Shown piece by piece: positions 12,205 through 36,150 of a DNA stretch of 36,938 nucleotides. Each line of letters begins with the position of its first letter. Within the stretch, counting starts at the first letter, position 1. The notes beneath the pieces were generated by a model, which worked only from the letters and a program-made list of their open reading frames with translations, was not told the DNA's origin and ran no database searches. The position numbers and the translations under genes are program-made. Source of the stretch: Anaerolineae bacterium (lineage in GTDB: Bacteria; Chloroflexota; Anaerolineae; J036; Brachytrichaceae); NCBI GenBank assembly GCA_018500105.2, contig JAHBAL020000139.1:1-36938 (forward strand), given 5' to 3'.

Positions 12205-12330
12205 CCTTGAGCCTTGAGCCTTGAGCCTTGAGCCTTGAGCCTTGAGCCTTGAGCCTTGAGCCTTGAGCCTTGAGCTTTGAGCCTTGAGCTTTGAGCCTTG
12301 AGCCTTGAGCTTTGAGCCTTGAGCTTTTGA
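12205..12330. repeat. Direct tandem repeat, ~18 units of CCTTGAG/CTTTGAG (7 nt)
   Basis: Continuous ccttgagccttgagcc... with ctttgag variants. Confidence 0.95.
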
Positions 12331-12407
12331 GTTGTGAGGTTTTTAGCTTGAGAATAAAATATACTCATAGCCTAAAGCTCATGGCTCATGGCTCATGGCT
12401 GCCTCCT

Positions 12408-13673
12408 ATGACTAACCTCTCCCCCGACCGTATGGAGCGCGTCGTCAGCTTGTTGATGCTGATGGGTGTGATCGGCGTGCTGTGGCGCGTGCCGGCGCTG
12501 ATTGTGCTGGCGGTGTTGCCGTTGATGGTATTTGGCATGGCAACGGTTTTGCAACGGCGCGTGCTACGCCCGATCACCTATCGGCGGCGCATCAGCCAAA
12601 ACCGCGCGTTTGTCGGCGAAACCTTGACTGTGACCAGCGAAGTGACCAACACAGGGCGCTTGCCAGTGCTGTCGCTCGAAATTGTGGATCAGTCGCCGAA
12701 GGGGTTTCAAAAACCAATGATTAATGATCAATGGTCAATGGTTAATGAAGGGAAGACCCAATCCCCAATCCCCAATCCCAATACGTCAGACGCGCTATTT
12801 GAACAGGTATTTTTCTCGCAGTTGCTATCGCTCAAACCGCGTGAACGGGTGCTGCAACATTTTCAAATTCAAACCAAACGACGCGGTTATTTTACTTTTC
12901 CACAGCCTTTGCTCACCGCCACCGAATTATTTGGCCTATTCGAGACCGAGCGCCATGAAAATATTCGGGATGCGGTGCTGGTTTATCCGCGTGTCTACGA
13001 CCTCGACGAAATCGGCATCCCCACTCGCACCCCCAATGGCGCACTTTCGGCCTTGCGACGGCTGATCGAAGACCCCTCGCGCACCATCGGCGTGCGCGAT
13101 TATCAATACGGCGATTCGTTTCGCAGCATCCATTGGAAGGCCAGCGCCCATCGCGGGCAATTGCAAACCCGCGTGTATGAGCACACCAGCGAGCCAACCG
13201 CCATGATTTTGCTCAATGTCATGACGTTTGAAAGCGACTGGGTGGGGGTTGACCCAGAGGTGTTTGAATGGGCAGTATCGGTGGCAGCTAGTTTGTCGAA
13301 ATGGGCGCACGAGTCGGGTTGCATCATCGGCATCTCGTCGAATGGGGCCGCGCCAAATATGCCCGAAGCCATTCAAGTGCGTCCGCGCCGCAGCCCCGAC
13401 CAATTGACGCATGTGCTAGAGGCATTGGCGGTGCTCATTCCGTTCGCCATCGGGCGCTTCGACGAATTTCTCATCAGCGAGCAACGCAGTTTGCCCTACG
13501 GCGCTGCCCTCATCATTATCAGCGCCATGCTCACGCCACAAGTCGAGATTGCGCTACGGCGGCTGCACAACGCTGGCAAGCGCATCGTTCTGGTCATCGT
13601 CGGTCGCCAGCGGCCTGCGTTGGATGGCTTGCCGTTTGCGGCTTATTATGTGGGGATGTTGGATAATTTCTAA
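12408..13673 (+). CDS. DUF58-domain protein (MoxR partner)
   Basis: RTIGVRDYQYGDSFRSIHWKASAHRGQLQTRVYE is the DUF58 signature; ATG at 12408 (codons upstream in the track ORF are repeat-derived). Confidence 0.9.
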   Translation: MTNLSPDRMERVVSLLMLMGVIGVLWRVPALIVLAVLPLMVFGMATVLQRRVLRPITYRRRISQNRAFVGETLTVTSEVTNTGRLPVLSLEIVDQSPKGFQKPMINDQWSMVNEGKTQSPIPNPNTSDALFEQVFFSQLLSLKPRERVLQHFQIQTKRRGYFTFPQPLLTATELFGLFETERHENIRDAVLVYPRVYDLDEIGIPTRTPNGALSALRRLIEDPSRTIGVRDYQYGDSFRSIHWKASAHRGQLQTRVYEHTSEPTAMILLNVMTFESDWVGVDPEVFEWAVSVAASLSKWAHESGCIIGISSNGAAPNMPEAIQVRPRRSPDQLTHVLEALAVLIPFAIGRFDEFLISEQRSLPYGAALIIISAMLTPQVEIALRRLHNAGKRIVLVIVGRQRPALDGLPFAAYYVGMLDNF

Positions 13674-13688
13674 TTTTTTATTATTTCG

Positions 13689-14999
13689 CTATTTATCTTC
13701 AAAACTTGAAATTTGAAACTCAAGCTCCAATTGCTGAGCATCCGGCTCAAAAAAATCCTTATTCTGTTTTTCCACATAAGACCATGACAGTTTTGATATT
13801 CCTCTTGAAGGGTCATAATTTTTTTTATAGTCTTCTACGACTTTCCTTGCAGGCAAGAATAATTTATCCAAATTATTTTCTATTTCCTCAATACTCCACC
13901 ATTGCCAATCCTCATTTTGATCAAATTCCTTCAGTTTTGGATTACCGTCATAGTCGCGCAACAAAAAACCTAGTGATAAAACTTTGGGTTTATCTTGAAA
14001 GTGTTGAATGTCACTAGAGATTGGAATAAAATATGACTTTTTATCATCATCGGTTGTTATTTTAGAGACTGTTAGCCCAGTTTCCTCTCTAAGTTCACGC
14101 AAAACACCATTTATTAAGTTCTCGCTGGGGTTAATCTTTCCGCCTGGAACCCCGTAAAGGTCTTTCCCGAATCCCATAATCCTTCTACTAAATAAAAAAC
14201 TTACCTTGCCATTTATTGCATTTTTTTGAAGAACGAGAATATGACAAACAACATACGGTTTTTTTCTTGTTGAATGTATTTTAAAAACAGGAGGATCCAA
14301 AAAAACGGGCTCAACTATCCAGAACAGATTATTATCTCTTTTTATACGATTTTTCTTTAAATCTACAAGCAGTGGAAGGCCGAAAAATGCGTGATACTTT
14401 ATCGGCAAACTAGATTTCCTCTTTGAGCTTTGAAATAAAAAAAAGGAAAGCTGTTCATCTCGATTTTCCGTCTTATCATCAATTGTTTGTTGAACTGTTA
14501 TGCTTGTTGCCGAATTGATACTTGATGTTGATAATGTAAAGTCTTTCGGCTCCCATATATTCAAATTTGGTGGAGAATCGTTTACATCACTTAATTCAGC
14601 ACGTTTTATATATGGCATATCTTGGTCTATCTCACCATCTTTGTAGGCCATCTCAACAAGAGCGTTCAAAACCAAGTTCTTTATATCAGTTGGATATTTT
14701 TGACGAACATGCCAAAGCGAAGGACGTGTTGGGAGATTAATCTTATTAGCCTTGGTTTCGTCTATATTAACAAAATCACAAAGCTCTTGAAGCTGCGGTT
14801 TCTCTGCCAGTTGTTTTGCAAGATCACGTTCACTTTGGATTTTAGTTAAAAAAGGTAACGTTAAAAGTTTAATAAGACTTATAAAGCTATATCCATTATA
14901 TCTATATGATGATAAGTTCTTGCCCCCTCCATTACCCATTTTACCTAACTCAGCCCAATTAACCCTAGAGTAAATCTCCTTTAACTGGTTGTAGTCCAT
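13689..14999 (-). CDS. Nudix hydrolase with N-terminal transposase-N-terminus-like (DUF772/IS5-type) domain
   Basis: Perfect Nudix box GKINPSENLINGVLRELREETGL; N-term YSFISLIKLLTLPFLTKIQSERDLAKQLAEKPQLQELCDFVNI...LPTRPSLWHVRQKYP resembles transposase N-terminal domains. Confidence 0.8.
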   Translation of the reverse strand: MDYNQLKEIYSRVNWAELGKMGNGGGKNLSSYRYNGYSFISLIKLLTLPFLTKIQSERDLAKQLAEKPQLQELCDFVNIDETKANKINLPTRPSLWHVRQKYPTDIKNLVLNALVEMAYKDGEIDQDMPYIKRAELSDVNDSPPNLNIWEPKDFTLSTSSINSATSITVQQTIDDKTENRDEQLSFFLFQSSKRKSSLPIKYHAFFGLPLLVDLKKNRIKRDNNLFWIVEPVFLDPPVFKIHSTRKKPYVVCHILVLQKNAINGKVSFLFSRRIMGFGKDLYGVPGGKINPSENLINGVLRELREETGLTVSKITTDDDKKSYFIPISSDIQHFQDKPKVLSLGFLLRDYDGNPKLKEFDQNEDWQWWSIEEIENNLDKLFLPARKVVEDYKKNYDPSRGISKLSWSYVEKQNKDFFEPDAQQLELEFQISSFEDK

Positions 15000-15011
15000 A
15001 TAATTAGCTCA

Positions 15012-16193
15012 TTAACTATTTCGAAGTAATTTAATTAGTGAAGCTATTGTGGTTACAATAACTATTATAGTTTGAATTAATGTAGCCCAATTAGCATAAC
15101 GTGACAGCACAGGATCGGTCGGGTTTAACATCAAAAGCAATGGTGCCGGGACTAGTATTAAGACCAACAATAGAAAAAAAATCAGCCATTTTTTTGTAAA
15201 ACGGCCACCTAATGCTGTCAAAATCTTGCCTTCTTGCTCAAAATTTTTAGCATTTTGGGTTATATATTTTATTAAGTCAATATTCCAGTCCTTAAACAAG
15301 GTCGGGGTCGACTTCATAATTTTCTCGTTATTGCGGCCAGAGCACTTTTCAATTTCCGTTTGATCAAACCAGCGATATGTGTTTATATTAACAACTCTCC
15401 CATTTACATCTAACCGTTTTTCTTTAAGCAACTGTTTTAAATGCTCATTGATATCAACATTTAGAGAGTCAATAACTCGTAATGTATATTCATACCTTGT
15501 AAATGCTCCTGTTGTTTTCGATACCATATCTACTACTTTGACAGGAGGAATAATAGTAGGTTCAATTTTGTATAAATTTTTACTTAATCCCAATTGAGTC
15601 TTCATTGCATCTTCTATCTCTTCACTCACATTAATAGGAGGATAGGGTTTGTTACTTGCTCCAATCAAATGATACTCATCCCATTCCGGATGAAGAGCAA
15701 ATAAAAACACATCTACAACTTGGTAGTTTCTTATTTGCTTGCCCTTAATTAGAACATTTGTAATACTTCTATTGTGAATTGGATCTTTTTCTAAAATTGA
15801 TGAACTATGCTCTCGTAGTTCTTCTAAAATTTTGGTGAATCCTATTGAGAAATTTCTTTCTGCGTCCGTTGAAAATCTAATCTTCAAACCCGATGTGTTT
15901 TTAAAAAATTTTGTCAAACTACCGATCACAAAGTAACTACTTCTTGATGTTACGCGAATAACATCTTCATTCTCGATTCTAAAAATTCCTAATCTCGCAA
16001 AAAAAAAGATAAAAGATTGAATTTGTAACCACTCGCCTAATTTATCAGCTTTAAATTGTGATTTAAAATCATGTAGGCTAATATTGGGCAACTCCGAGTT
16101 GAGCTTAACATGTTCCTCATTTTTTTGCAAGAGGTGCGTTAGAAGATTAGAGATATTTTCGATAAAAACATCATTTTGGCTTCGATTAAACAT
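15012..16193 (-). CDS. Hypothetical protein: putative wHTH N-term, degenerate Nudix-like middle, two C-terminal TM helices
   Basis: VVDVFLFALHPEWDEYHLIGASN...INVSEEIEDAMKTQLGLS...YRWFDQTEIE; TM segments WLIFFLLLVLILVPAPLLLML and WATLIQTIIVIVTTIASLIKLL. Confidence 0.6.
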   Translation of the reverse strand: MFNRSQNDVFIENISNLLTHLLQKNEEHVKLNSELPNISLHDFKSQFKADKLGEWLQIQSFIFFFARLGIFRIENEDVIRVTSRSSYFVIGSLTKFFKNTSGLKIRFSTDAERNFSIGFTKILEELREHSSSILEKDPIHNRSITNVLIKGKQIRNYQVVDVFLFALHPEWDEYHLIGASNKPYPPINVSEEIEDAMKTQLGLSKNLYKIEPTIIPPVKVVDMVSKTTGAFTRYEYTLRVIDSLNVDINEHLKQLLKEKRLDVNGRVVNINTYRWFDQTEIEKCSGRNNEKIMKSTPTLFKDWNIDLIKYITQNAKNFEQEGKILTALGGRFTKKWLIFFLLLVLILVPAPLLLMLNPTDPVLSRYANWATLIQTIIVIVTTIASLIKLLRNS

Positions 16194-16252
16194 AATGCTT
16201 TATTTGAAATGAGATAAAACTTTAGACAGGTGAATTTAAATAAGTTCTTTAG

Positions 16253-17467
16253 TTATAATTTTGGGGACAATAATTGCTTAGTTGCTTCCCATGTAATCTC
16301 TTGCACCTCATCTATGGGATGATTCGCGTCTATCTTTGTTGATTTTATGAAATAAAAATTATTGTCAAATATATCCAGATATGCCTCTCTCAATTTTGTT
16401 ATTTTATCCAGCGTTTCGTATATTCCTGTTTTTCTGCCTCGTGTTTCTATTCTAGAAATTGCATTTTCAGGTGTTACATCATAGAGTAATACTAGATTAG
16501 GAATAGGAATAAATTGATGTTGAAAAGCTACTTGTGCTCTTTCCCAATTATTTTTACATTGATATACTAAGGTGCTAATATAACTGCGGATAGAAATTAC
16601 AATCTTCCCATTGGCTAAAGCCGGTTTAACAACCTTACTAATTTGTTCGTATCGATCTGCCAAGAGCAGATGGCTCATAATAACAGGATCATCTAATTCT
16701 TTATCACTGTTATTCGCCGACGCCCAAGCATTTCGATAATTTTTATACATTTCCGTTGGTTCAGATATGCAAACTACTGAGTACCCCTCCTTTTCAAGGC
16801 GTTTTTTTAACAATTGTGCTTGCGTATCCTTTCCAGAACCACTGACCCCTTCCAACACTATATATTTTCCATTGTGAGTAAATGCCTCAAAAGGTGGCTG
16901 ATATCTTAGATGCTCAAGAAACATTCTTGCCATTAATGTCTCATTTCGCGCAATTTGTTGACTTTCAACAAATAATAAGCTATTCAAACGTTTTGGCATA
17001 CGATTTTGTAAGCGATCCAAAATCTGCGAAACACCACCTCTAGTTTCACCTGCCCATAAGGCAATTCGCAATACCCCCCAAGCTCCAAAACCTGCTAAAA
17101 AATCTGCCTCTTTGAGAATTAAACCTTCAAGAGAGTTAGGTGATAAATCAGGCTGATCATGTTCCTGAATTGCCTGTATAACCCTACGTTTTTGTTCCAC
17201 TGTAAGGTTCACTGAATTTAAAATCTCCTCTGCTTGTCTTATGGAACTATTACGACTAGCTTCGCCATGTAAATTATCTGGATCACTCCGTCCTAGGTCA
17301 TGAAGTAACGTAGCTGCAATGATGACATCTAAGTCGCCTCCATGTCGCGAATGTAAAAAGTTGGCAAAGCTTAGTACACGATCTATGTGCCAATGATCAT
17401 GGCTCACACTTAAAAACTTACTTGCTATGGTTTTCCATAATTTTGCTTCTATTGAGTTATTAATCAT
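16253..17467 (-). CDS. HD-domain phosphohydrolase fused to thymidylate kinase-like P-loop kinase
   Basis: HD part: SHDHWHIDRVLSFANFL...AATLLHDLGR...IQEHDQP...LKEADFLAGFG. Kinase part: KYIVLEGVSGSGKDTQAQLLKKRLEKEGYSV...ISIRSYISTLVYQ...SRIETRGRKTGIYE. Confidence 0.85.
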   Translation of the reverse strand: MINNSIEAKLWKTIASKFLSVSHDHWHIDRVLSFANFLHSRHGGDLDVIIAATLLHDLGRSDPDNLHGEASRNSSIRQAEEILNSVNLTVEQKRRVIQAIQEHDQPDLSPNSLEGLILKEADFLAGFGAWGVLRIALWAGETRGGVSQILDRLQNRMPKRLNSLLFVESQQIARNETLMARMFLEHLRYQPPFEAFTHNGKYIVLEGVSGSGKDTQAQLLKKRLEKEGYSVVCISEPTEMYKNYRNAWASANNSDKELDDPVIMSHLLLADRYEQISKVVKPALANGKIVISIRSYISTLVYQCKNNWERAQVAFQHQFIPIPNLVLLYDVTPENAISRIETRGRKTGIYETLDKITKLREAYLDIFDNNFYFIKSTKIDANHPIDEVQEITWEATKQLLSPKL

Positions 17468-18143
17468 GTTTATATTCCTTAAATGTTCGAGTGCCTTTTG
17501 AACCGAGACAAGACAAATCTCTATAAAAAAAATATTTTATATTTTCATCTTTGATGTTAAATTTAGCTGCTATATTCTCGGGCACATCATTTTTTGTGTT
17601 GTAACGATACATTCTCTTTTCCTCAGACGATAACTGTGCTCCTGTTGGGTAGTTTTTTACATCTTTCCATTCGCAAGCTATAGGGACAAGAGGCGTTTCA
17701 ACACCTTCGATAGCAATAACTTTCACTTTTTGAATTCCTAAGTTTTGTGCAACACAACAACGATGTAACCCATCAACTAAGCCCACTTTCCATCCATTCC
17801 GGCCTACATTAAGGTGTGCATTTTCGTAAAACATCTCCACCACGGGCGGTGCTATTTTCTGAATATTGTCCGTTTCATATTGAAACTCAACAATGCCAGA
17901 TAAATTAAAGAGATCTAATCCAGCTTTTAGAAAAGATTTATATAACTCTTGTGTTTCTAAAATTCTATTTTGCAATGTGTATAACGCAAGAGGGGTTAAA
18001 TCTTCAGGGTTATAAAATGCTTCTGTGATTGAACAACCAGCATATGGATAGTGATTTGTGTCACCTTTAAGCTGCACTTTTCGCAATTGGGTCGCCATAG
18101 TTTCCCAATCAATAATATTTAGGATATTAAGCTCATTAGACAT
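17460..18143 (-). CDS. ParB/sulfiredoxin-like domain protein
   Basis: GWKVGLVDGLHRCCVAQNLGIQKVKVIAIEGVE matches the ParB-like 'vvDGhHRl.Aa..lG...vpv' motif; 8-nt overlap (ATGATTAA) with the next gene. Confidence 0.65.
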   Translation of the reverse strand: MSNELNILNIIDWETMATQLRKVQLKGDTNHYPYAGCSITEAFYNPEDLTPLALYTLQNRILETQELYKSFLKAGLDLFNLSGIVEFQYETDNIQKIAPPVVEMFYENAHLNVGRNGWKVGLVDGLHRCCVAQNLGIQKVKVIAIEGVETPLVPIACEWKDVKNYPTGAQLSSEEKRMYRYNTKNDVPENIAAKFNIKDENIKYFFYRDLSCLGSKGTRTFKEYKHD

Positions 18144-18257
18144 AAATGAATCACGATTAACCTACATTTCATCAAACAAATAATCATCACAAGTAATCTT
18201 GTGTTATAACTTGTTAAATGGGCAGATCTAATTTGAAAATCAAACAGAAATTGGATA

Positions 18258-18277
18258 GATGCATTATACGATGCATT
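18258..18277. promoter_or_regulatory. Candidate operator: two GATGCATT direct repeats 12 bp apart upstream of the ParB-like gene
   Basis: gatgcattatacgatgcatt; each contains palindromic ATGCAT; a minus-strand TATAAT lies between them (18263-18268). Confidence 0.35.
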
Positions 18278-18289
18278 CAATGCTATAAT

Positions 18290-19309
18290 TTAGCTGGGCG
18301 CTTTATTGCGCCTGATGCGTTTTAAATTTTTTGTTCTAGTATTGTTTAATGTTCTCACAAAAGGAATACGTGTTGGACCATCTCCTAAAGAAGGAATATC
18401 CGTTAAAGGGCCAACAACGCTCATTCCTACATGGGGTAAATTTGGCTTATAACCATGGTTATAAGATAGTATCCGATTACTAAAGAACAACTCACGCCCA
18501 ATAAAACTGTTTCCTCCAATTGGGTTAGCTGAATAAGTTTGATCAATGACACACCCATATATACCTGTCAAACCATCATAAAGTTCACGGACTTCCGGGG
18601 CATCATCATAAGATAACATCCATGGTAATGAAAGTTTAATTACATAATCACGCAACTCACAATGCATCCTCTTGTTAAAAACGTATTCATATAATTTAGG
18701 AGCGCGGTGATAATATGGGGGGTCCATATACAAATAGGCAAACTTTGTGTTCTCATATAAACTACAAAACGCTCTCCAATCCATATTTTCCACACAATCA
18801 ACCTGATCCCGATAATCATACAGTTTTTTCAGTTTCTGAATAATCTTTTCGCGGTTGAATCGAACACTAATCAATCTATTTTCTTGCTTCCATCCGCCGA
18901 TTGGCCCAGATTTATGCAAAATGCCATTAAAACTTGTGCGATTAATAAAGAGGCACTTCCAAGCTAATTCACGAACATTCTGAGGCTTATAGTTTCTTTG
19001 GCGAACCCATTCCTCAACTGAAATATCACTCGACTCAACTTGATCTATCAGCCATTGAATATCATTATGTGATTTACAACTTTTGCCAAACACTACTTTC
19101 CAAAAACTGGCAACTAAAGGGTCAATATCGTTCAGCGCAATTCGTTTTATTTTCTTTGACTCTAAAAGCGCAATTGCAGCACCAGCACCACCACAAAATG
19201 GCTCAACAAATACATCAGCAACTTCACCTGAAGTTTTTATTGAGTCAAAAATAAAGTGAGTGAATCGTGCTTTTCCGCCAGGATAACGTAATGGAGATGT
19301 TGAAATCAT
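18290..19309 (-). CDS. D12-class DNA N6-adenine methyltransferase (Dam-like)
   Basis: SPLRYPGGKARF, FVEPFCGGAGAAIALL, ALNDIDP, FINRTSFNGI, YLYMDPPYY (motif IV). Confidence 0.93.
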   Translation of the reverse strand: MISTSPLRYPGGKARFTHFIFDSIKTSGEVADVFVEPFCGGAGAAIALLESKKIKRIALNDIDPLVASFWKVVFGKSCKSHNDIQWLIDQVESSDISVEEWVRQRNYKPQNVRELAWKCLFINRTSFNGILHKSGPIGGWKQENRLISVRFNREKIIQKLKKLYDYRDQVDCVENMDWRAFCSLYENTKFAYLYMDPPYYHRAPKLYEYVFNKRMHCELRDYVIKLSLPWMLSYDDAPEVRELYDGLTGIYGCVIDQTYSANPIGGNSFIGRELFFSNRILSYNHGYKPNLPHVGMSVVGPLTDIPSLGDGPTRIPFVRTLNNTRTKNLKRIRRNKAPS

Positions 19310-19426: not shown

Positions 19427-19672
19427 TCAGATTTTCCGATCATATTCGTCATGCTTGCCGACCCAATACCAAAAAACGGTGTCGTCTTCAATAAATCCGA
19501 GCGCTCGATAATTTCTGTCCACACGAGCGGATACATCACTGCCCACCCGTTTAAACCGCCGCGCATTGGGGTTTTCCTTCCACTCGCGATAAGCATAGCG
19601 AATTCTGGCGCGAATTTCAGGCGACAACGCCCGAAAAGCTTCGATAAAACCCGGCAGCAATTTTGATTTCAT
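19427..19672 (-). CDS. RelE/HigB-like toxin
   Basis: 81 aa, ...RFKRVGSDVSARVDRNYRALGFIEDDTVFWYWVGKHDEYDRKI; typical RelE-fold C-terminus. Confidence 0.75.
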   Translation of the reverse strand: MKSKLLPGFIEAFRALSPEIRARIRYAYREWKENPNARRFKRVGSDVSARVDRNYRALGFIEDDTVFWYWVGKHDEYDRKI

Positions 19673-19998
19673 TTCAACACAAACTCGCCATTTTCATCAT
19701 ACGCCGGAATTGCTTTACCAGCCTTGGCGTCAACCCTAGCCTTGGCTTTTAGCTCAGCAAATTTATCTGCATGACGCGCCATAGAAGCCGCCCACAATTC
19801 ATCTTCTTGCGCCAACTCAGCATCGCTAATAAAGTTAATATCGTCCTCTATCTCTACCGATGGTGTCACAAAATCATCAGCGGATAAAAAACGAGCAAAC
19901 GCATATAGTTGCGCTGCTTTCTCAACCGGAAGGGTTTTGACCAATGCAGCAATTAATTGTGAGTAATTCGCTACAGGGCTTGTTAATTGAGTTTGCAT
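19669..19998 (-). CDS. Putative cognate antitoxin
   Basis: 109 aa protein directly upstream of the RelE-like toxin with ATGA stop/start overlap. Confidence 0.6.
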   Translation of the reverse strand: MQTQLTSPVANYSQLIAALVKTLPVEKAAQLYAFARFLSADDFVTPSVEIEDDINFISDAELAQEDELWAASMARHADKFAELKAKARVDAKAGKAIPAYDENGEFVLK

Positions 19999-35490: not shown

Positions 35491-36150
35491 TCACTTACTT
35501 TTTTCTCTTATTTTTGCTTCTAAATCGCCAAGTGTTTTAGGTCTGCTCGCAGATTGATTCTCGCTAAATGAATTGACGTTATTTCCGCTAATTTTATATC
35601 TACCGGCTGGATTTACTATTCGGTAGAGTGTTCTGCCATTTGCATGAATATTGTCATGCGAAATATCCACCAAAAACAAAACGTATTCTTCGCCCGCTTT
35701 ATACAACGGGTCGTCACGTATCTCAAATTTTGCCGACCACATTTGTCTGCCGGTTTGCATCACAATTATTTTAGATTGTGCTTGACCTTGATAAACTTGA
35801 AGCACATCAAATGTCGTATCCGTAAAGGGTAATTCGTCAACATGTGTGCCGACAACCTTCGTCCCTTCCATCATTGGGAATTCATTTCTTAATATTCTGG
35901 TTTCTTTCGTGCTGGTTGCCCTAACTTTTACGACAAGCTGAGATTCAGATTTCAGCGCTTCAATTGTTGAGGCTTTGGATACCCATTCGGCAATTGATAC
36001 GACATCAGCACTTGGCAAATCGCCTAAAGCCCCTTCGGAGAGAGGATATTCTTTTGAAGAATCTACAACCGGTTGTGTTTTATAGACCTGCCCGCCAACG
36101 ACCATCATTAAAGCAACAATTATCGCCAGCACCTTCAAATTGATTGTCAT
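35491..36150 (-). CDS. Hypothetical exported/membrane-anchored protein
   Basis: 219 aa with N-terminal hydrophobic segment; strong SD AAGGAGG upstream of the ATG (minus strand, ~36151-36166). Confidence 0.65.
   Translation of the reverse strand: MTINLKVLAIIVALMMVVGGQVYKTQPVVDSSKEYPLSEGALGDLPSADVVSIAEWVSKASTIEALKSESQLVVKVRATSTKETRILRNEFPMMEGTKVVGTHVDELPFTDTTFDVLQVYQGQAQSKIIVMQTGRQMWSAKFEIRDDPLYKAGEEYVLFLVDISHDNIHANGRTLYRIVNPAGRYKISGNNVNSFSENQSASRPKTLGDLEAKIREKSK

Follow-up and report, generated by a model that had tools for sequence, protein, structure and literature searches.

An AT-rich five-gene island in an Anaerolineae genome, tentatively a variant of methyltransferase and ParB-type conflict systems

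What does a block of AT-rich genes do in an otherwise GC-rich chromosome? The question is raised by five genes at positions 13689-19309 of a 36,938-nucleotide stretch from an Anaerolineae bacterium (contig JAHBAL020000139.1 of assembly GCA_018500105.2), the whole of which is called the window below. The genes of this island, P5 to P1 in order of transcription, encode a DNA methyltransferase (P5), a ParB-type protein (P4), a fusion of an HD phosphohydrolase with a thymidylate kinase (TMPK)-like domain (P3), a protein with two transmembrane segments (2TM; P2) and a Nudix hydrolase (P1). We tentatively read the island as an acquired anti-phage or anti-plasmid conflict operon that sits in a defence hotspot and works like the methyltransferase + ParB systems, of which PD-Lambda-5 is an example. 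Our confidence in this reading falls somewhat short of even.

The composition of the island is distinct. The GC is 0.32-0.38 over 14-19 kb, versus about 0.51-0.61 on either side. At third codon positions (GC3) it is 0.27-0.30 in all five genes and 0.58-0.71 in the flanking genes, and the codon usage of all five diverges strongly, and to a similar degree, from that of the backbone (0.76-0.89 bits). The open reading frames (ORFs), the GC profile and GC3 thus agree with the initial annotation, which had described five consecutive minus-strand genes in AT-rich DNA amid a GC-rich backbone and had proposed a check of GC and codon usage; the drop in GC, the low GC3 and the codon divergence are common to all five genes. 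Since GC3 is alike in all of them, the island has one compositional source, and it is probably foreign DNA that was acquired horizontally. The host assembly comprises 5.3 Mb in 574 contigs; misassembly as the origin of the island was judged unlikely, because backbone GC flanks it on both sides within one contig. The genes are closely packed: 146 bp separate P5 from P4, P4 and P3 overlap by 8 bp, and gaps of 59 bp and 12 bp follow before P2 and P1. A search of the island borders for repeats of integrative elements gave only short, imperfect and chance-like ones, there are no tRNA genes in the window, and a promoter scan gave a signal no better than that of shuffled sequence.

The methyltransferase and its association with ParB proteins carry most of the argument. 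In P5 the characteristic motifs are intact (DPPY at residue 196, PFCGGAG at 37), and its best PADLOC model is PD-Lambda-5_B (9e-66, 220 bits). For comparison, the seven closest Chloroflexota relatives (E 1e-52 to 8e-28) were fetched together with their neighbours. In six of the seven a ParB-domain protein adjoins the methyltransferase, in one case (L089) with one small gene between. Of these six ParB neighbours, the five that were scanned match PD-Lambda-5_A models; the remaining one, at L092, shares 64% identity with one of those five. Among twelve more distant D12 methyltransferases, a PD-Lambda-5_A-like ParB protein directly adjoins one. A one-sided Fisher test of this difference gives p=0.0017, with the qualification that the genomes are related and not phylogenetically independent. 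As relatives of P5 are usually found beside ParB, the pairing of P5 with P4 fits a recurring type. Further, two of the six ParB-linked relatives (L090 and L092) share the gene order of the window, with the methyltransferase followed by ParB and a third gene.

The closest relative of P5 among the genomes searched, at 41% identity (L088, from the Chloroflexota genome G118), has no ParB neighbour and adjoins HerA and NurA, which also points to a defence role. The P5 subfamily pairs with interchangeable partners, ParB types as well as HerA-NurA, a rule that can be put to the test in the search for more such systems.

The neighbourhoods of these relatives contain several arrangements of their own. 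L088:3691-7983 is a three-gene unit of D12 methyltransferase, HerA helicase and NurA nuclease. L090:1438-4388 and L092:1065-4031 are copies of a conserved three-gene unit, in which a D12 methyltransferase and a PD-Lambda-5_A-like ParB protein are joined by a 309-residue protein, with no Pfam or PADLOC match for the scanned L090 copy; PD-Lambda-5-like systems may have in it a third component. At L091:173-4510 a C5-cytosine methyltransferase, an apparent HhH-GPD glycosylase, a PD-Lambda-5_A-like ParB protein and a D12 methyltransferase form one run, which may represent two modification systems side by side.

The site of the island also bears on its role. A backbone gene of DUF58 type at the left edge is convergent with P1, with 15 bp between the ORF ends. 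In a genome of the same genus (G305) the longest match to the orthologue of this gene (L056) runs up to 13658 of the window, at 85.5% nucleotide identity. Just past this orthologue, G305 has 251 bp at GC 0.37 that encode the C-terminal ~60 residues of a DUF3427 protein (PF11907, 5e-5), convergent with the DUF58 gene as P1 is. The tail matches the PADLOC model mREase_IV (type IV restriction) at 0.0036, aligned at the C-terminal end of the profile; SauUSI, a type IV restriction enzyme, has DUF3427 as its C-terminal domain (PMC3874153). At the right edge of the variable site lies a ParE-like toxin with its partner, and the G305 contig with HbpS starts inside an orthologue of the partner gene (57/85 identical). 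G305 thus has different AT-rich, restriction-type DNA between the DUF58 gene and the ParE-like pair, as one would expect of a defence hotspot, and the comparison of the two genomes suggests that the site is one.

Table 1. Coordinates of the island, its genes and the genes at its edges (aa, amino acids).
Feature	Description	Position in window	Strand	Remarks
Island	five genes, P1 to P5	13689-19309	-	all on the minus strand
P5	D12-class adenine-N6 DNA methyltransferase, 339 aa	18290..19309	-	first gene of the unit; PF02086 5e-16
P4	ParB/sulfiredoxin-superfamily protein, Parb-CE domain, 227 aa	17460..18143	-	PF24392 6.8e-10, above cut-off
P3	HD phosphohydrolase + thymidylate-kinase-like domain, 404 aa	16253..17467	-	PF01966 3e-6, PF02223 4e-31
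P2	orphan protein, two C-terminal transmembrane segments, 393 aa	15012..16193	-	hydropathy
P1	Nudix hydrolase, DUF772-like N-terminus, 436 aa	13689..14999	-	last gene; PF00293 2e-13
Left edge	DUF58-type backbone gene	12312..13673	+	named by eye and neighbourhood, family scan not made
Right edge	ParE-like toxin	19427-19672	-	PF24732 1e-5
Right edge	partner of ParE-like toxin	19669-19998	-	

The Pfam matches in Table 1 agree with the initial labels of P5 as a D12 adenine methyltransferase, of P4 as a ParB-like protein and of P3 as an HD+TMPK-like fusion. P4 also carries the ParB-type GxHR/GxRR motif, as DGLHR at residue 124. ParB domains in conflict contexts are reported to have nucleoside triphosphatase and/or nuclease activity (PMC5512222; PMC10853773), and a nuclease role for P4 is possible by analogy.

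How close is the island to PD-Lambda-5, which has been described as a compacted system resembling restriction-modification combined with abortive infection (PMC9519451)? It shares the PADLOC methyltransferase family, a ParB-superfamily neighbour on the same strand and the gene order of L090 and L092. However, no similarity to PD-Lambda-5_A could be detected in its ParB protein, which is of the Parb-CE type and short beside the A proteins of the relatives (about 370-490 aa), and there are three extra genes. As the test for the A subunit failed, we do not class the island as a member of PD-Lambda-5; it is probably best filed with the methyltransferase + ParB-type conflict systems as an unrecorded variant. 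Nor is the cognate endonuclease of a type II restriction-modification system seen beside P5, as no endonuclease family is found among P1-P4 with Pfam or PADLOC. The unit at L088 has in common with the island that it is a putative multi-gene defence unit around a related methyltransferase; there the effector is a helicase-nuclease pair, in contrast to the ParB, HD-TMPK, 2TM and Nudix proteins here. No PADLOC model covers the set, so the initial statement that the combination is unnamed stands.

The domains of P3 belong to the families of the HD nucleotidases (YpgQ, YedJ, PenF) and the canonical thymidylate (dTMP) kinases, and solved relatives of the HD part are YpgQ (5dqv) and YedJ (3gw7). The HD residues H27, H56, D57 and D122 are present, so that the H..HD..D pattern is kept. 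Canonical TMPKs use a P-loop carboxylate to contact the 3'-OH of dTMP. In the kinase half of P3 this Asp is S209, while the Walker A Ser/Thr is D214 (GKD) and the Asp of the DR motif is I293 (I293-R294). P3 therefore differs from both families in fusing the two domains, and from dTMP kinases in lacking their defining features (Walker A GK[ST], P-loop Asp/Glu and DR motif), while family and fold match: in an AlphaFold2 model made from five sequences (mean predicted local distance difference test, pLDDT, 69) the C-terminal half matches TMPK structures. From these residues we take the kinase half to serve in binding or regulation, or to be an enzyme of altered specificity. Matches of P3 to the PADLOC models PDC-M51B and VakA were rejected as generic to TMPKs; control kinases score about as well against PDC-M51B, and VakA too is matched by one of them.

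Relatives of P3 occur in three other genomes (G301, G009 and G140, the latter two reached a second time as L038 and L039), and a search of a wider set of genome contigs recovered only HD-TMPK relatives, these two loci among them. The G301 gene is seen as two contig-end fragments (C244 and C464) with the middle missing; its visible HD residues are kept, the first residues at the C464 end weakly match another family, so that this end is possibly imperfect, and another tmk-like gene adjoins. In the G009 and G140 copies the N-terminal half is degenerate and the HD motifs are lost, while the Walker A Thr is kept, the reverse of the copy in the window. These copies (L008:1042-2181 and L009:1060-2196, Chloroflexota family f20) follow ffh. 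Each of the four family members seen has another residue in place of the P-loop Asp (S, N, S, S), a sign that specificity may have changed. The form is found in none of the 135 other genomes of the class sample. HD-TMPK fusions thus make up a small Chloroflexota family in which the two domains appear to decay alternately.

P2 has hydrophobic segments at about 335-357 and 369-391, with hydropathy peaks of 3.0 and 2.2. It has no family match in Pfam, PADLOC, NCBIfam or PHROGs (an NCBIfam match at E=0.1 is noise), and its single-sequence AlphaFold2 model is uninformative (pLDDT 39). It had been described as a degenerate-Nudix-like 2TM protein; the two transmembrane segments hold, while the degenerate Nudix domain finds no match in the libraries. 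For P1, annotated as a Nudix hydrolase with a transposase-like N-terminus, the Nudix part is well founded, with a complete Nudix box (GX5EX7REUXEEXGU) at residues 286-309, GGKINPSENLINGVLRELREETGL. Its N-terminus matches DUF772 below threshold (E=5e-4, 20.4 bits against a cut-off of 23.1), so the transposase-like label is not upheld. No homology between P1 and P2 was found. The combination recalls the 2TM effectors of cyclic-oligonucleotide-based antiphage signalling systems (CBASS) and Cap16 (2TM + NUDIX), in that P2 has a soluble part and two transmembrane segments and that a nucleotide-processing enzyme adjoins. However, a CD-NTase (cGAS/DncV-like) domain is found in none of the five island proteins, and P2 gives no match to Nudix families or to PADLOC models.

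Given these parts, we infer a defence role along the following lines. P5 would methylate host adenines and thereby mark self. P4, as a ParB-type protein that binds or hydrolyses nucleoside triphosphates, would act on, or respond to, unmarked DNA; the large PD-Lambda-5_A subunit is absent, and P4 would instead be translationally coupled to the HD-TMPK protein. The HD domain of P3 is proposed to be active because its active-site residues are intact; most likely it would hydrolyse a nucleotide under the control of the TMPK-like half, which has lost catalytic residues and would now mainly bind nucleotide. YpgQ, an HD relative of P3, is a nucleotide pyrophosphohydrolase (PMC11592144). The nucleotide change would then lead P2 to permeabilise the membrane, so that the infected cell is stopped; CBASS 2TM effectors, including Cap16 with its NUDIX domain, are toxic by membrane damage (PMC10419184). 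Finally, the P1 Nudix enzyme would clear the nucleotide and reset the system. The order of the P3, P2 and P1 steps is a proposal, each step being held with low confidence. If it is true, one operon joins DNA-modification systems with nucleotide-signal and membrane-effector systems, which are usually separate branches of immunity. In its strongest form the proposal is a methylation-gated immunity of an undescribed kind, in which a Parb-CE protein links D12 self-marking with an HD nucleotidase and its sensor of TMPK origin, a 2TM effector and a Nudix off-switch, acting by abortive nucleotide signalling; so specific a system we consider unlikely.

Several observations weigh against the conflict operon. 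A second locus with the same gene set was not found in 301 Chloroflexota genomes, its own included, and conservation of the five-gene set across genomes is unproven. P4 has no match at E<=1 to PADLOC models, and its hhalign comparison with six Chloroflexota PD-Lambda-5_A-like proteins is not significant. In 300 other Chloroflexota genomes no relative of P4, P2 or the N-terminus of P1 reaches E<=1e-3, and P4 and P2 have none in plasmids and phages either; scans of viral contigs likewise found no relatives, in a viral collection that is under-searched. The relatives of P3 sit in ordinary chromosomal contexts without P4, P2 or P1 alongside. Co-occurrence elsewhere, on which the initial annotation had staked its proposal, is thus not seen for P1-P4. 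Nucleotide binding by P2 is hypothetical, the hotspot in G305 rests on two contig ends with the alternative allele unassembled, and P5, at 146 bp from P4, could be an independent orphan methyltransferase.

This last point leads to a looser history, which is possible if doubtful: P5, as an orphan or a remnant of restriction-modification, and P4-P1 would be separate acquisitions with only the hotspot and a pool of AT-rich donors in common, and the latter four genes may make up a single small system or two unrelated ones. Such accretion is favoured by the 146 bp upstream of P4, by the differing partners of the P5 subfamily, by the HD-TMPK proteins that stand alone elsewhere and by a site that behaves as a hotspot. 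Against it, the five genes are alike in GC3, codon bias and strand, the gaps are small, P4 and P3 overlap, and a methyltransferase beside a ParB-type protein is the very pairing of the P5 relatives. The same pairing, together with the restriction-type gene at the congener's site, speaks for a foreign conflict or DNA-modification island as initially proposed, while the four-gene nucleotide module within that proposal is weakly supported, by the P4/P3 overlap and the tight packing.

The enzymes could also serve nucleotide sanitation or DNA hypermodification, with the HD, TMPK-like and Nudix domains processing a non-canonical (deoxy)nucleotide and the methyltransferase and ParB protein acting on the DNA product. 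Three nucleotide-handling domains together, the P-loop Asp replaced throughout the HD-TMPK family and a B12-radical SAM gene followed by TMPK-like kinase and Nudix genes on two Streptomyces plasmids are in line with this. However, none of the island genes encodes a base-modifying enzyme (thymidylate synthase-like, TET/JBP, radical SAM or glycosyltransferase), the kinase domain has neither the Walker A Ser/Thr nor the DR Asp, and one would not expect a 2TM protein in a pathway of this kind, so we regard this reading as improbable. Least probable are salvage or housekeeping genes that are AT-rich by chance and have no conflict role. HD-TMPK relatives do adjoin ordinary genes, another tmk in G301 and ffh in G009 and G140, but the foreign composition, the absence of the HD-TMPK form from the rest of the class sample, the pairing of methyltransferase with ParB and the gene of restriction type in the congener weaken this explanation. 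Prophage metabolism genes, which the initial annotation had named as an alternative, are not indicated.

A few further observations were made. The partner of the ParE-like toxin is unusual, and it is retained beside HbpS in G305. Near the end of the contig there is a second AT-rich stretch (35491-36150 of the window, minus strand, GC 0.41), which encodes an orphan protein of 219 aa with no Pfam match. On the Streptomyces plasmids (L096:12096-15483 of NZ_CP108576 and L097:3035-6423 of NZ_CP108380) the genes belong to a run of four that is ordered alike on both: a protein that by eye looks like an AlkA/HhH glycosylase, with no Pfam match, a B12-binding radical SAM protein, a dTMP-kinase-like protein and a Nudix hydrolase. 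This run is possibly a modified-nucleotide pathway with self-protection.

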